A stretch of 64,000 nt of DNA, from positions 1-64,000 of the forward strand of contig CP066694.1 of assembly GCA_016432545.1 (NCBI GenBank). Direction: 5' to 3'. This DNA comes from an archaeon. Its GTDB lineage: Archaea; Thermoproteota; Nitrososphaeria; Nitrososphaerales; Gagatemarchaeaceae. Positions 15,667 to 49,656 of this stretch are shown here, one piece after another. The number at the start of each line of letters is the position of its first letter. Within the stretch, counting starts at the first letter, position 1. Under the pieces are notes generated by a model. It saw only the letters and a program-made list of their open reading frames with translations, was not told the origin of the DNA and did no database searches. The position numbers were made by a program, and so were the translations under genes.

Positions 15667-16663
15667 CCATCAGGTCTAGGGCAGTCTCCGAAATGTCAGC
15701 TCCGTACTCGGCGATTCTGCGGATGCTCTCAAGGACGAGCCGGACTGAGCCCACCTGGGCCCCGTTCATCCTCGCAGCGAGCATCTCTCCGCTCAGCTTC
15801 TCCTCGATCCTGGACACTTCGCCAGCCTTCCCTATCGCCTCTTCCGCGAACTTCGGGTCAAGGCGTAGTAGCGCGGTGACAGACCCCTCGAAAACCTTCC
15901 TCGAGAGTTCTGCCAGGTCTTTGATCCGCTTTAGTGAGCTCTCCGGGAGGGAGTTCAAAGCCTCGGCCTGCGATGCAATCTGGACCGCGTGGTCCCCGAC
16001 CCTCTCGACGCTCTTCGCGACTAGCCTGTAGCCCAGACAGTCCCTTGCAGAGCCCAATCCCATCTCCTGAATGACTGATCGGTCCCTGATGGCGATATTG
16101 AGCTGTCTCAGGATGAAGTGATAGAACCTGTCCACCTCGTCGTCCCTGTCTATCACCTCCTTGGCGAAGCCAGACTCGTCTGAGCGCAGTGCGGCGACGG
16201 AGTCGCTGACCATTCCGGAAGCGATGATCCCCATCCTCTCCACTGCCTTCTTCAGCGGCAGGTCGGCGTACCCTGAGAGGCATTGCGTGAGCAGGGCCGT
16301 CGGGGACTCCTCGATTATCTCCACTCCCACCAGCTTTCTTCGTATCCCGTCCCTTATCGCTCCCCTGAATGCGGCGTCTGCCTTGCCCAGGTTGACCCGG
16401 ACGACGTCGTACCCGGTCAGATAGTGCGAGATATAGTGTCGCAGCACACCGTCCCTGTCCATACCCGAGACGACGTCAATCGCGGCCTCCGGCTTGGAGA
16501 CCTGCCTAAGGTCCCGCCTGGGGACTATTAGGAGAGAATCGTCCGGCTGCGTTATCACCGCCACCGCATCCTTCGGTCTGAGCCCGACTTCCTTGACCCA
16601 ACTCTTGGGCAGTGAGACGACGAAGCTGTTACCTCCCGTGACCTGAACCTTGCGAAAGTCCAC
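15653..16663 (-). CDS. phosphate uptake regulator, AbrB-PhoU fusion
   Basis: A 336-residue regulator. The N-terminus VDFRKVQVTGGNSFVVSLPK followed by SWVKEVGLRPKDAVAV is a SpoVT/AbrB DNA-binding fold. Two PhoU helical bundles follow (HYLTGYDVVRVNLGK onward; SVERVGDHAVQIASQAE as the PhoU metal-site motif; RRIAEYGADISETAL in the second). The start is GTG 16663, 25 nt after a TATA-like box, so probably leaderless. It is divergent from pstSCAB-phoU and is its likely repressor or sensor, as for archaeal AbrB-PhoU proteins beside pst operons. Confidence 0.88.
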   Translation of the reverse strand: MDFRKVQVTGGNSFVVSLPKSWVKEVGLRPKDAVAVITQPDDSLLIVPRRDLRQVSKPEAAIDVVSGMDRDGVLRHYISHYLTGYDVVRVNLGKADAAFRGAIRDGIRRKLVGVEIIEESPTALLTQCLSGYADLPLKKAVERMGIIASGMVSDSVAALRSDESGFAKEVIDRDDEVDRFYHFILRQLNIAIRDRSVIQEMGLGSARDCLGYRLVAKSVERVGDHAVQIASQAEALNSLPESSLKRIKDLAELSRKVFEGSVTALLRLDPKFAEEAIGKAGEVSRIEEKLSGEMLAARMNGAQVGSVRLVLESIRRIAEYGADISETALDLMVREP

Positions 16664-16683
16664 GGTCCGGAGCAGGCAAGGAT

Positions 16684-16693
16684 GTATATATGT
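16684..16693 (-). promoter_or_regulatory. TATA-like box for the AbrB-PhoU gene
   Basis: Minus-strand ACATATATAC centred about 25 nt before GTG 16663. Confidence 0.55.
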
Positions 16694-16729
16694 GTGTCCG
16701 AAATCCACTTCGTCTCTATACTTCCTGTC

Positions 16730-16744
16730 GTCCACAATATGGAC
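16730..16744. promoter_or_regulatory. candidate Pho operator (inverted repeat)
   Basis: GTCCA-CAATA-TGGAC, with perfect 5-bp arms, lies between the divergent AbrB-PhoU gene and pstS. It is a candidate binding site for the regulator; position is the only support. Confidence 0.35.
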
Positions 16745-16799
16745 ACGTGGAATACTTCGGCGACCCCTAAAACCGGCGCGCCTGCGGGAAGGCTCGAAA

Positions 16800-17978
16800 A
16801 TGAACACCGAACGGAAAGCAGTAAGCACAACTACAATCGCAATTGTCGTGGTGTTGATCGTCGTGGTAGCGGGTGCCGGGGCGTATGCGCTCTACGGATC
16901 CAACTATGGCGGGAACACTACCTCATCCAACACGACAACCTCGGCCCAGGCCGAAACGCTGGGCGGCGCCGGCTCGACATTCGTCTATCCGCTGATGTCG
17001 GCGATGATAACCCAGTACTCGGGCCTGCACACGAACATCCACATCAACTACCAGGCAGTAGGCAGCGGGGCAGGAATCACCGACCTGGAGAGCCACACCG
17101 TCGACTACGCAGCCTCGGACGCGCCCCTGAAGGCAGCCGACCAGGCAAAGGCTCCAAACGCCCTGACGATTCCCGTCACAATAGGCGCAATCACTGTCGC
17201 CTACAACCTCCCGCACATCGCGACGGGCTTGAACCTCACGGGTGACGTGATCGCCCAGATCTACGCAGGGAACATCACCATGTGGAACGACCCCAAGATA
17301 GTCAACCTCCAGACCAACGCGACCCTCAAAGCAGCACTACCAGCCCAGCAGATCATAGTGGTCCACCGCTCTGACAGCTCAGGAACCACCTTCACCTTCA
17401 CAGGCTTCCTCACGCAGGACAGCCCGGCCTGGGCAAAGGAAGTTGGGCAGGCGAAAGCACCCTCCTGGCCGACTGGGTACGGGGCAAACGGCAACGCGGG
17501 CGTCGCAGGGTTCGTCCAAGGGACACACCTGACGATAGGCTATGTGGAACTCGCGTACGCGCTCACGTCCACGCCGAAGCTGACCCTGAGCGCCGTCCAG
17601 AACCCTGCGGGCAAGTACGTGGTCCCCAGCCTCCAGACCTCTGCAGCGGCAGCGTTGGCACTTAGCAACCTCCCCGCGGGCAACGGGGACTGGTCCGGAG
17701 TCGACCTCCTGAACAAGCCTGGAGCCACGACATACCCAATCGTCACTTTCACCTACATCTTCGTCTACAAGGAGCTGAGCGTAAACACGGCGCAGACCTC
17801 AGGCAAATCGATTGCAGGGGCGACCGCCCTCGTGCAGTTCCTGTGGTGGGCCGTGCACGACGGCCAGCAGCAATCCCAAACACTAGACTACGTCCCGCTG
17901 CCACAGAACGTGGTAACGCTGGACGAACAGACTATCCAGACCATCACCCTCAACGGACAACCACTCCCAACATCATAG
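16800..17978 (+). CDS. pstS: phosphate ABC transporter substrate-binding protein
   Basis: Periplasm-equivalent phosphate-binding protein, 392 aa. An N-terminal membrane segment (TTIAIVVVLIVVVAGAGAYAL) and a short Ser/Thr linker (NTTSSNTTTSAQA) anchor it to the membrane; no lipobox cysteine is seen. The binding domain starts GGAGSTFVYPLMSAM, with VGSGAGITDL, DYAASDAPL and VVHRSDSSGTTFTFT as phosphate-contact loops. ATG 16800 has GGAAGG eight nt upstream; the open frame to 16650 overlaps the divergent gene. First gene of pstSCAB-phoU. Confidence 0.93.
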   Translation: MNTERKAVSTTTIAIVVVLIVVVAGAGAYALYGSNYGGNTTSSNTTTSAQAETLGGAGSTFVYPLMSAMITQYSGLHTNIHINYQAVGSGAGITDLESHTVDYAASDAPLKAADQAKAPNALTIPVTIGAITVAYNLPHIATGLNLTGDVIAQIYAGNITMWNDPKIVNLQTNATLKAALPAQQIIVVHRSDSSGTTFTFTGFLTQDSPAWAKEVGQAKAPSWPTGYGANGNAGVAGFVQGTHLTIGYVELAYALTSTPKLTLSAVQNPAGKYVVPSLQTSAAAALALSNLPAGNGDWSGVDLLNKPGATTYPIVTFTYIFVYKELSVNTAQTSGKSIAGATALVQFLWWAVHDGQQQSQTLDYVPLPQNVVTLDEQTIQTITLNGQPLPTS

Positions 17979-18041
17979 GCATGGTGCCGGGCTTCCGACA
18001 CCAGCCTCTACCCATTTTACAGACCATAGGAATCGTCACTT

Positions 18042-18986
18042 ATGAGGAGCCTCCCAAGCGGCGATACAGCGTTCAAGGTCGGGGCCGCCCTTCTTGCTTC
18101 ATCCGTCGTACTCATAGTCTTCTTGGCCGGGTATGTCCTAGTCAGCGGCTCGACTCTAGTCCTCTCGAAGTTCGGAACCTACTTCTTCACAGGGATTGAA
18201 TGGAACTCGGCCGAAGGGCACGAGATCTACGGCGCGCTTCCCTACCTCTTGGGGACGCTCGCCACATCCGGGATCGCTATCGTAGTAGGAGTCCCGATCA
18301 GTCTCGGCATCGCCATCTTCCTCTCCGAGATGTCTCCCAGGCGACTGCGAATCCCGGTCTCGAACCTGGTCGAGTTGCTCGCCGCTGTCCCCAGCGTGAT
18401 CTACGGGCTCTGGGGATTCTTCGTCTTCCGCTACTTCCTGGCCGACTACATCGAGACCCCGCTCTCTGCCTACTTGGGATGGCTCCCTGGCCTAGGCGGT
18501 TCTCCCGTGGGGGTCGACGTCCTCTCGGCTGGCTTGATACTGTCGATCATGATCATACCCACGGTCTCCTCCGTGAGCCGCGAAGTCATTTCTGCCGTCC
18601 CCAACTCGATCCGCGAGGGCGCCTACAGCATCGGCGCTACCCGATGGGAGGTTACGCGCCACTGGGTGCTCAACTACGCACGCTCCGGTCTCTTCGGGGC
18701 CGTCATTCTGGGCCTCGGGAGAGCGGTGGGCGAGACCATAGCGGTGAGCATGGTGATAGGCAACGCGGTCGGCCCCCTTGCCCTGCCTACTTCACTGCTC
18801 AAGCAGAGCCAGACGATGTCGTCATACATAGTCAACATCTTCTTCGACGCGACCCCGGGGACCTACGAGTTCTCTGCGATTCTCGGCGTTGGCCTCTTCC
18901 TTCTTGTCTTGGCCCTCGTGATTAACGTGCTAGCGCGACTCATGGTCACAAGGCTGCTGAAAGTGAAGGGGGGCGCGGTGGAATAG
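18042..18986 (+). CDS. pstC: phosphate ABC transporter permease PstC
   Basis: A 314-residue permease with six membrane segments. The binding-protein-dependent transport loop is visible as EGAYSIGATRWEVTRHWVL followed by GLGRAVGETIAVSMVIGN, which contacts PstB. A large loop between early helices (SEMSPRRLRIP) is typical of PstC. It lies 63 nt after pstS and 1 nt before pstA. It forms the channel with PstA. Confidence 0.92.
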   Translation: MRSLPSGDTAFKVGAALLASSVVLIVFLAGYVLVSGSTLVLSKFGTYFFTGIEWNSAEGHEIYGALPYLLGTLATSGIAIVVGVPISLGIAIFLSEMSPRRLRIPVSNLVELLAAVPSVIYGLWGFFVFRYFLADYIETPLSAYLGWLPGLGGSPVGVDVLSAGLILSIMIIPTVSSVSREVISAVPNSIREGAYSIGATRWEVTRHWVLNYARSGLFGAVILGLGRAVGETIAVSMVIGNAVGPLALPTSLLKQSQTMSSYIVNIFFDATPGTYEFSAILGVGLFLLVLALVINVLARLMVTRLLKVKGGAVE

Positions 18987-18987
18987 C

Positions 18988-19827
18988 ATGGACCACTATG
19001 CCGCGCGCAGGCTGAAGGACAGGGTCTTCACGATACTTGGTGGCCTCTGCGTGGTCCTCGCTGTCATACCCCTCGGGAGCATCTTGTTGGGTGTCATCGC
19101 GAAGGGCCTCCCTGCGATGAGCTGGGCCTTTCTCACCACGGACTCTCTTCCGAGCACGACTAGCCCCGGGGGAATAGGGCCGGCGATACAGGGGACGCTG
19201 ATGCTCGTAGGCCTCACCAGCCTGATCGGAATTCCGATCGGCATCATGTCCGGGATCTTTCTTGCAGAGTATGGGACCAATCGCTACGCGTCAGTCCTGA
19301 GGCTTCTCAACGACGTCCTAACCGAATTCCCGTCGATAGTTGCAGGGATCACGATTTATCTTACCTTCGTCCTGATATTCGGCTACTCGACCATCGCCGG
19401 AGCACTCGCCCTGTGCTTCATCCTGATTCCCATCGTTTCGAGGACCACGGAGGAGTCGGTCAAGCTCGTGCCCAACTCCCTAAGGGAGGCCTCTCTGGCT
19501 CTGGGGATAAGGAAGTGGAGGGGGACGGTCAGCGTGGTCCTCCGTGCCGCACGGTCGGGGCTCATCACCGGGTCCCTTCTGGCCGTCGCAAGAGTAGCCG
19601 GAGAGACGGCACCGCTGATTTTCACTGCGTTCGGAAACAGCTACTTTGCCACAGGTCTGAACGGGCCTGTGGGCTCGCTTACCATGTACATCTTCTCGGA
19701 CTGGAAGCAGCCCTACCAGGGTTACCAGCTTCAGGCGTGGGGCGCCGCCCTTGTCCTGATCCTGATGGTACTGCTGATCAACATAGCCGTCAGGCTCGCG
19801 ACCAGAGGAAGAGGAGCCAGAAGGTGA
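18988..19827 (+). CDS. pstA: phosphate ABC transporter permease PstA
   Basis: A 279-residue permease with six membrane segments. The EAA loop reads [20 protein letters not shown], followed by [19 protein letters not shown], a PstA hallmark. It starts one base after the pstC stop and overlaps pstB by 4 nt (GTGA), so translation is coupled. Confidence 0.92.
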
Positions 19828-20666
19828 CCCTAGTCTTGCAGGAGACCCTTGAGATGAAGACAAAAGAACTACGGCCGCCAGACCCGTTTCCGATGGGCGC
19901 TCCCGGCTCCAGCGAGAAGATGAGGAGCGAGGGGCTCAGCGCATGGTATGGGGGAAAGCAGGCCCTCGACGGCGTCAGCCTTGGGATAGCGTCTCACGCG
20001 ATTACGGCTATCATAGGGCCTTCGGGGTGCGGAAAGTCTACCTACGTCAGATGCCTGAACAGGATGCACGAGCTGGTCCCCGGAGCCAAGACCGAAGGGC
20101 ACGTCTTCCTCGATCGGAACGACATCTATGGGCCAAAGGTGGACCCGGTCCTCATTAGACGAAGGATAGGAATGGTCTTCCAGAAGCCCAATCCATTTCC
20201 CACGATGTCAATCTATGACAACGTCGCAGCAGGGCTGAAGCTCACGGGAGCGAGAAAGGGAAAGGACCTGGACGAGGTAGTACGAAGGAGCCTTGAGCTT
20301 GCCGGTCTGTGGGACGAAGTCAGAGACGACCTGGACAAGCCGGGGACGAGCATCTCCGGGGGGCAACAGCAGCGACTCTGCATCGCGAGGGCAATCGCCC
20401 TCGAGCCCGAAGTGATATTGATGGACGAGCCTTGCTCGGCCCTGGACCCTGTGGCTACCGCTAAGATCGAGGGCTTGATGACCTCCCTGAAGAGCAGGTA
20501 CACCGTGGTCGTCGTGACCCACAACATGCAGCAAGCCTCCAGGGTCGCGGACTATACCGCCTTCCTCTACCTGGGGAAGCTGATCGAATATGATGACACC
20601 CCCAAGATTTTCGAGAACCCGAAGGAGGAGCTTACTGAGAGGTACATCACCGGGAAGTTCGGATAG
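19824..20666 (+). CDS. pstB: phosphate ABC transporter ATP-binding protein
   Basis: The ATPase of the phosphate importer, about 280 aa. Walker A is [10 protein letters not shown], followed by [10 protein letters not shown] as in PstB; the Q-loop is FQKPNPFP; the signature is [15 protein letters not shown]; Walker B is [13 protein letters not shown]; the switch His is in [13 protein letters not shown] 19824 overlaps the pstA stop and has GAGGAG 7 nt upstream; ATG 19854 with its own GGAG is an alternative. The open frame further upstream is a shadow of pstA. Confidence 0.93.
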
Positions 20667-20675
20667 TGGTATGGA

Positions 20676-21302
20676 TTGACTAGGCTCATGGACATGGGGC
20701 TCGAGCGGCTCAACGGGCTCCTCCTGGAAATGGCCGCCCTCTCTGAGAACGCCGTAGCCTCGTCCATAGAGGCGTACGCCAGCGGCGGAAAGGCCGGACA
20801 GGTGCGTGAACAGGCTCAGAAGCTGCAAGGCCTCCACCGCCAGGTCAGCGACCTCACCATGGAACTGATCGCAAGGTTCCAGCCGGTCGCCTCGGACCTC
20901 AGGTTCATCAAGGCCTGCTTCGAGATTTCATACGGCTTCCACAGATTCGGCCGATATGCCCTGGACATAGTGGAGGTGCTCGAGATGTTCGGGGACCTTC
21001 GAAAGTGCGACCACGAGGCCGTGGTTAAGGCAGCCGCCACGACGAAGGAGATGATCAGGATGAGCGTGGACGCCTTCGCGAAGAGGGACGTCGGGCTGGC
21101 GAGGCGCATTCCAAAGCTGGACGACCTGGTCGACGAGAGCTACAGGCAGCACTTGAGGGGAGTCATGGACCAGAAGAAGGACGTCAGGTGCGCACTTTCA
21201 GCCAGCCTCATCCTCAGGTACCTGGAGAGGATCTCGGACCACGCGACCTACATCGGCGAGTCCGTCGACTACATCGTGACAGGTATCGAGCCCTCGGCTT
21301 GA
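20676..21302 (+). CDS. phoU: phosphate-specific transport regulator PhoU
   Basis: A 208-residue two-bundle PhoU protein. Metal-site motifs appear as HRFGRYALDIVEVLE in the first half and LRYLERISDHATYIGESVDYI in the second. PhoU proteins link Pst activity to phosphate signalling. TTG 20676 starts 9 nt after pstB; ATG 20688 or 20694 are possible. This is the second PhoU-domain protein in the locus; unlike the AbrB-PhoU protein it has no DNA-binding domain. Confidence 0.9.
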   Translation: MTRLMDMGLERLNGLLLEMAALSENAVASSIEAYASGGKAGQVREQAQKLQGLHRQVSDLTMELIARFQPVASDLRFIKACFEISYGFHRFGRYALDIVEVLEMFGDLRKCDHEAVVKAAATTKEMIRMSVDAFAKRDVGLARRIPKLDDLVDESYRQHLRGVMDQKKDVRCALSASLILRYLERISDHATYIGESVDYIVTGIEPSA

Positions 21303-22429: not shown

Positions 22430-22481
22430 CTTGGTCAGTTCTGGTAAACTAAATAGCCGACATCGGGCGGGGTCTTTCGAC

Positions 22482-22589
22482 GCCCTGGTAGTATAGAGGT
22501 CAGTATGCTGCCCTGTCAACGAGCGCGTCTTGGCAGAGCGGCGGCGACCCGGGTTCGAAATCCCAAGGACGAAAATCCCGGCCAGGGCG
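22482..22589 (+). tRNA. tRNA-Asp (GTC) with two apparent introns
   Basis: The acceptor strands GCCCTGG (22482-22488) and CCAGGGC (22582-22588) pair fully, with G as discriminator. The anticodon GTC is at 22515-22517 in a stem CTGCC/GGCGG. About 20 nt (22519-22538) must be removed at the usual 37/38 site, and about 16 nt (near 22559-22574) interrupt the T-loop, which otherwise reads TTCGAAT between CCGGG and CCCGG. Spliced length is about 72 nt. CCA is not encoded. Confidence 0.85.
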
Positions 22590-49411: not shown

Positions 49412-49469
49412 AAACACGCCCGAAGGCTGCCAACCTTTAAACCGACTAGGAGGTCGGCCGACTTCGCCT

Positions 49470-49543
49470 GGGGCCGTCGTCTAGCTTGGCAGGATACTTG
49501 CTTGGGGTGCAAGTGGTCGTGGGTTCGAATCCCACCGGCCCCA
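49470..49543 (+). tRNA. tRNA-Pro (GGG)
   Basis: The acceptor GGGGCCG pairs with CGGCCCC; the anticodon stem CTTGC/GCAAG holds loop TTGGGGT with anticodon GGG at 49504-49506; the T-arm is GTGGG-TTCGAAT-CCCAC. The discriminator is A and CCA is not encoded. No intron. Confidence 0.93.
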
Positions 49544-49656
49544 TCCGAAGCCTACAGCCAAGACGCCCTCAGTGTTCATGTCTCGCATTACAGCCTTATC
49601 AAACGCTTTCCTACCTTAGAACGCAGGTCTATCTCTTGCTCCCCCTTGGATCTCCA

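Follow-up and report, generated by a model that had tools for sequence, protein, structure and literature searches.

The tRNA-Asp(GUC) gene described here is interrupted twice, once in the anticodon loop and once in the T loop, and lies in a window of 64,000 nucleotides, the whole stretch of an archaeal contig that was analysed. The question it raises is whether both inserts are introns whose removal yields a working tRNA and, if so, what their removal requires of the splicing endonuclease. An earlier note, made from the letters of the window, had proposed an insertion of about 20 nt after position 37, a second one of about 16 nt in the T loop and, once both were taken out, a normal 72-nt tRNA with perfect stems.

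The borders that we assigned are listed in Table 1. The first insertion was borne out as proposed. The second exists and has the proposed size, but its borders, which had been placed near 22559-22574, were one base early. When the three exons were joined, they gave an RNA of 72 nt that ARAGORN called as tRNA-Asp(gtc), and removal of intron 2 restored the T loop UUCGAAU in the correct register. The acceptor and T stems of the spliced form are perfect, as had been claimed, but the anticodon stem is not, because it contains one U-G wobble (28-42); the D stem begins and ends with a G-U pair. The unspliced gene received no call from ARAGORN and no match to the Rfam tRNA model at the gathering score, so that the annotation of a complete genome could miss tRNA-Asp altogether. 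ARAGORN and Rfam reported just one tRNA in the window, an intronless tRNA-Pro(GGG) at 49469-49546. Upstream of the tRNA-Asp gene, at 16650-21302, is a phosphate-uptake cluster with PstS-, PstC-, PstA-, PstB- and PhoU-like open reading frames (named by eye from their translations).

Table 1. Features of the tRNA-Asp locus, in positions of the window
Feature	Position	Strand	Details
TATA-like element TAAATAG	22450-22456	+	26-32 bases upstream of the tRNA-Asp gene; putative box A
Pre-tRNA-Asp(GUC) gene	22482-22589	+	108 nt; acceptor 22482-22488 with 22582-22588; discriminator G 22589
Exon 1	22482-22518	+	tRNA positions 1-37; anticodon GTC at 22515-22517
Intron 1	22519-22538	+	20 nt; position 37/38, after A37; strict motif, inner helix 4 bp, central helix 4 bp
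Exon 2	22539-22559	+	tRNA positions 38-59
Intron 2	22560-22575	+	16 nt; T loop position 59/60, after A59; outer helix is the 5-bp T stem, inner helix 3 bp
Exon 3	22576-22589	+	tRNA positions 60-73

At both introns, two 3-nt bulges flank a 4-bp helix at the exon-intron borders, the arrangement that defines the archaeal bulge-helix-bulge. In each case the loop has seven bases, of which the first four pair with the 3' end of the intron, and the cut falls behind the sixth; the motif is thus strict. For intron 1, the outer helix is the 5-bp anticodon stem (the motif scan counts 7), the central helix pairs C32-U35 (CUGU) with GCAG near the 3' end of the intron, the bulges are CA^A and AG^C, and the inner helix is CGAG/CUUG. 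For intron 2, the central helix is UUCG/CGAA, the inner helix is UCC/GGA, and the bulges lie at 22558-22560 (AA^A) and 22574-22576 (AA^U). The geometry at 37/38 and 59/60 is thus identical, with four loop bases entering the central helix in two seven-base loops; at both sites the 5' bulge consists of loop bases five and six and the first intron base, and the 3' bulge of the last two intron bases and loop base seven. Intron 2 therefore shares the motif and geometry of archaeal 37/38 introns generally, but uses the T loop in place of the anticodon loop.

The earlier note had suggested folding both junctions, and the minimum free energy (MFE) structure of the 108-nt precursor drew each of them as a helix-bulge-helix-bulge-helix motif. 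Its energy was -50.2 kcal/mol (z -4.05), a value that none of 200 shuffled sequences reached. When the gene was scanned for 4-bp central helices with flanking helices, introns 1 and 2 ranked first and second. In 200,000 shuffles of the 16-nt insert, the central helix together with three or more inner pairs came back at a frequency of 3.5e-5; for the 20-nt insert, with four or more inner pairs required, the frequency was 1.5e-3. Under the set criterion, both strands of the window together contain 90 comparable motifs, or about 0.08 for every 108 nt of a single strand, and one motif alone is therefore only moderate evidence. The exact register of intron 2 is strong evidence.

We compared the gene with its counterparts in the same genus. 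The 3' exon pattern was found in 21 of 31 genomes (our own included), in 23 gene copies altogether; each of them has 15-17 nt inserted in the T loop, and no intronless T loop occurred among these readable copies. The 5' exon pattern was found in the same 21 genomes and in one more, where the contig ends inside the gene (G014), while nine of the 31 genomes gave no tRNA-Asp by either pattern. The exons are near-invariant across the genus, and each of the 17 congeneric genes compared has an A/T-rich element between about -38 and -27. An anticodon intron is present in 18 of the 20 copies that were extracted; the other two (L017 and L018) have a D-arm insert and keep the T-loop intron, which contradicts the idea, raised in the earlier note, of a different fold with a single intron. 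Three of the four inner-helix pairs of intron 1 have changed on both sides among congeners. In intron 2, the central helix is invariant within the genus and so offers no covariation there; in 11 of 14 congeners the third inner pair does not form, so that most keep only two inner pairs.

Several tRNA-Asp genes carry further peculiarities. One congeneric copy (L016 240-365 in G009, the same gene as L064) carries an additional D-loop insert, its third, with a GTATAG repeat flanking it and a relaxed motif. Another tRNA-Asp (L021 in G028, near 1501-1640) has an insert in the D loop; on the 3' side of its acceptor stem, at 69/70, it probably also has an intron of 30 nt, with a good bulge-helix-bulge. 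In two congeneric genomes, G007 (C11, C16) and G015 (C1, C3), there are two copies of tRNA-Asp, and every one of them contains the T-loop intron; this may reflect strain mixture or duplication.

To look beyond the genus, we used the collection of species genomes (84,980 species), in which 115 stretches contained a tRNA-Asp with a T-loop insert. An exact-exon scan of the genome contigs had given no match, and the survey used a looser pattern (tRNA-Asp exons plus an insert of 9-39 nt); 80 of the 115 stretches were fetched. Going by record title, they came from Woesearchaeota (48), Thaumarchaeota/Nitrososphaerota (17, including Nitrososphaeria and Nitrososphaerales), Nanoarchaeota (3), Aenigmatarchaeota (2) and Brockarchaeota (1), with nine labelled only 'archaeon'. 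At the 59/60 register, central-helix pairing was found at all 80 loci, with four of four pairs in 65 and three of four in 15, whereas moving the register by 1-4 bases left full pairing in at most two. Base 57 and intron base -6 changed together: G-C in 23 loci, G-T in 3, A-T in 42, A-C in none and other combinations in 12. With introns of our genus's own type excluded (66 loci), the counts were 9, 3, 42, 0 and 12, although p-values for this pair of bases are inflated by shared ancestry. Outside the genus, many inserts have no inner helix where the strict motif would place it, and their motifs may therefore be relaxed.

The description of T-loop introns as rare therefore needs qualification. 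In a sample of 398 genomes of the phylum, searched with the exact exon pattern, the insert was present in five genomes and absent from 58, which agrees with rarity but is not a census because the remaining genomes mismatch the exon letters; against it stand all the readable congeners and the 115 stretches in several archaeal phyla. Within our own genome, a generic T-loop pattern matched 14 places, as many as in a reversed control (14), and a T loop was recognised in two of them, the tRNA-Asp and the initiator tRNA-Met. One candidate, L217, was rejected as a T-loop case: it overlaps a tRNA-Ala, though not as its T loop.

Could only the anticodon intron be real, with the mature tRNA keeping the 16 nt in a larger T loop? 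The folding of whole precursors lends this some weight, since the MFE contained the T-loop motif in just four of 20 congeneric copies (L001, L002, L003 and L016), with a different fold winning in the rest, and the cloverleaf-plus-motifs structure lay 9.6-20.8 kcal/mol above the MFE in 15 congeneric rows (one of which, L016, has the wrong 5' end, with its first exon and D-loop insert omitted). When the T arm was folded alone, the central helix and both bulges formed in all 15 rows. The exact restoration of UUCGAAU and the compensatory pairing of base 57 across the 80 loci speak against retention, as do relatives with an intact T loop, of which there are four outside the genus (L020, L023, L024 and L026, the last being the same gene as L030; another gene there, L022, has an unrelated T-loop insert). 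In addition, a 23-nt T loop would be incompatible with docking between the D loop and the T loop. We consider retention of the insert very improbable.

An anticodon intron of about 12 nt is just as improbable. In that solution GGCAG (22531-22535 or adjoining) would form the 3' side of the anticodon stem, and the variable region would be long. Such an intron was what ARAGORN proposed when introns were allowed and intron 2 had been removed, and GGCAG would pair perfectly with CTGCC, but there is no bulge-helix-bulge at that border. The two relatives that lack the anticodon intron have a 4-nt variable loop, CGAC, as the 20-nt solution predicts, and it is the inner-helix pairs of the 20-nt intron that vary on both sides.

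The 20-nt and 16-nt introns of Table 1 being preferred, there remained the question of whether the cell has another tRNA-Asp. Our genome is a complete contig of 1,504,237 bases, rated 100% complete, in which BLAST with the tRNA-Asp region found one place and the 5' and 3' exon patterns one place each. Of the 38 tRNA-like matches in the contig, 30 were examined and eight weaker ones left out; no GTC anticodon occurred among the 23 of these 30 that ARAGORN called (seven were uncalled). A number of further tRNAs in the genome also look interrupted (L190, L194-L203 and L206), with lower RF00005 scores and in some cases no ARAGORN call. This is the only tRNA-Asp gene found in the genome, so that an essential tRNA seems to depend on it; the intact second gene that the earlier note had envisaged was not found by BLAST, among the tRNA-like loci or with the exon patterns. 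A decayed pseudogene, with the working tRNA-Asp elsewhere, would account for the failure of ARAGORN and the Rfam model to detect the gene, but the single BLAST match and exon patterns in a 100%-complete genome, the absence of a GTC tRNA from the 30 tRNA-like loci examined and the near-invariance of the exons in the genus make it the least probable reading of all.

We therefore regard the locus, with great confidence for a reading drawn from sequence, as a single-copy, functional tRNA-Asp gene with two bulge-helix-bulge introns, which would be transcribed, cut by the endonuclease and joined by RtcB. In a host that is probably a non-ammonia-oxidising thaumarchaeon (Gagatemarchaeaceae-like), the precursor would be transcribed from its own promoter, a two-subunit endonuclease would cut each motif within its two 3-nt bulges, and RtcB would join the exons to give the 72-nt tRNA. 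Removal of the T-loop intron would have to precede both the modification of the T loop and its docking with the D loop.

The genome encodes candidates for this machinery, i.e., one RtcB ligase gene and two splicing-endonuclease genes whose sequences assign them clearly to family PF01974, which has at least one copy in 36 of 41 genomes (our own included). The product of one (L031, 185 amino acids) has 3p1z and 3ajv as its closest solved chains, and in the alignment it retains the tyrosine, histidine and lysine that we take to be catalytic. Its K40 aligns with a lysine of 3p1z taken as that of the specific loop; 3p1z is presumably from Aeropyrum pernix and the lysine presumably Lys44. The other (L032, 201 amino acids) is a second subunit without the catalytic histidine. 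Sequence comparison thus predicts that the host endonuclease is of the two-subunit (alpha-beta)2 type with the crenarchaea-specific loop, having one catalytic and one non-catalytic subunit. Yoshihisa (2014; PMC4090602), in the part of the review available, likewise assigns a two-subunit endonuclease to Thaumarchaeota. The loop and its lysine have been tied to broad specificity, and relaxed motifs require enzymes of this kind, according to the accessible portion of another review (PMC6379350). As the catalytic subunit carries this loop, the encoded enzyme is predicted to be of the broad-specificity type. Nevertheless, the proposal that the T-loop intron needs an endonuclease with relaxed specificity found no support: the review confines that need to relaxed motifs and, because both motifs here are strict, relaxed specificity is unnecessary for either intron. 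A T-loop intron by itself is no sign of it.

Position 59/60 is among the known non-canonical insertion points, and non-canonical introns at times accompany a canonical one (Yoshihisa, 2014; PMC4090602, available part). The 59/60 introns in that text share with intron 2 both the insertion between bases 59 and 60 and the splicing motif, but here the intron lies in the tRNA-Asp of a thaumarchaeal genus and in every readable member. In the accessible text on tRNAscan-SE 2.0 (PMC8450103), for which a clade-specific model exists, 107 non-canonical introns are given for Thaumarchaeota; these are of the same class, compared with ours by count and not by gene or position. The pre-tRNA-Ile(UAU) of Cyanidioschyzon merolae also has multiple introns, in the D, anticodon and T arms, although this is a eukaryotic alga and its T-arm intron, in the text available, is at 53/54 rather than 59/60 (PMC9602550). 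According to the same text, its U55 pseudouridine synthase is inactive on precursors with the T-arm intron, a parallel for the consequence of a T-loop intron. The tRNA-Asp gene is thus a fine addition to an established class of genes and brings no new mechanism.

Introns also interrupt the initiator tRNA-Met of the genus. In our genome the gene (C1:899138-899270; L213, L221) has three predicted introns (18/19, 37/38 and 59/60), and in two congeners, G435 (L226) and G011 (L230), it has four (18/19, 37/38, 52/53 and 59/60). Among 22 complete genes from 22 genomes (a count that excludes L253, cut by a contig end; L258, another gene; and a second, partial match in G023), an intron was predicted in the D loop in 21, at 37/38 in 15, at 52/53 in 12 and at 59/60 in 11, giving two introns in nine genes, three in 11 and four in two. 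All 22 spliced forms are 76 nt long and represent four distinct sequences, so each intron site is seen both filled and empty. Several motifs of the D-loop and anticodon introns form only three of the four pairs of the central helix and are hence relaxed. As long as a four-intron precursor retains its 52/53 intron, the 59/60 motif has a single outer pair, which implies that the 52/53 intron leaves first. The available text of two papers gives three introns as the published maximum per tRNA (PMC4033280; PMC8450103), and our literature search, with supplements and most subscription journals outside its scope, found no archaeal tRNA with four. The four-intron initiator tRNA-Met would, as predicted, stand one above that maximum.

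Nearly every T loop begins with UUCR and so provides one strand of the central helix, a role that the anticodon loop plays at 37/38; this may be why the site recurs. We incline, with some reserve, to the view that the T loop offers the Archaea, at 59/60, a second standing site for introns, with the geometry of 37/38 and refilled many times through the near-universal UUCR, and that this genus has pushed multi-intron tRNAs furthest, with a four-intron initiator tRNA-Met one above the maximum in which removal at 52/53 would precede formation of the 59/60 motif. For specialists, the interest lies in the genus-wide series rather than in the single gene. The genus provides a natural series of intron gain and loss, in which four positions of one tRNA are found filled and empty while the mature sequence stays nearly constant, so that the spread of tRNA introns and the order of their splicing would be directly testable.
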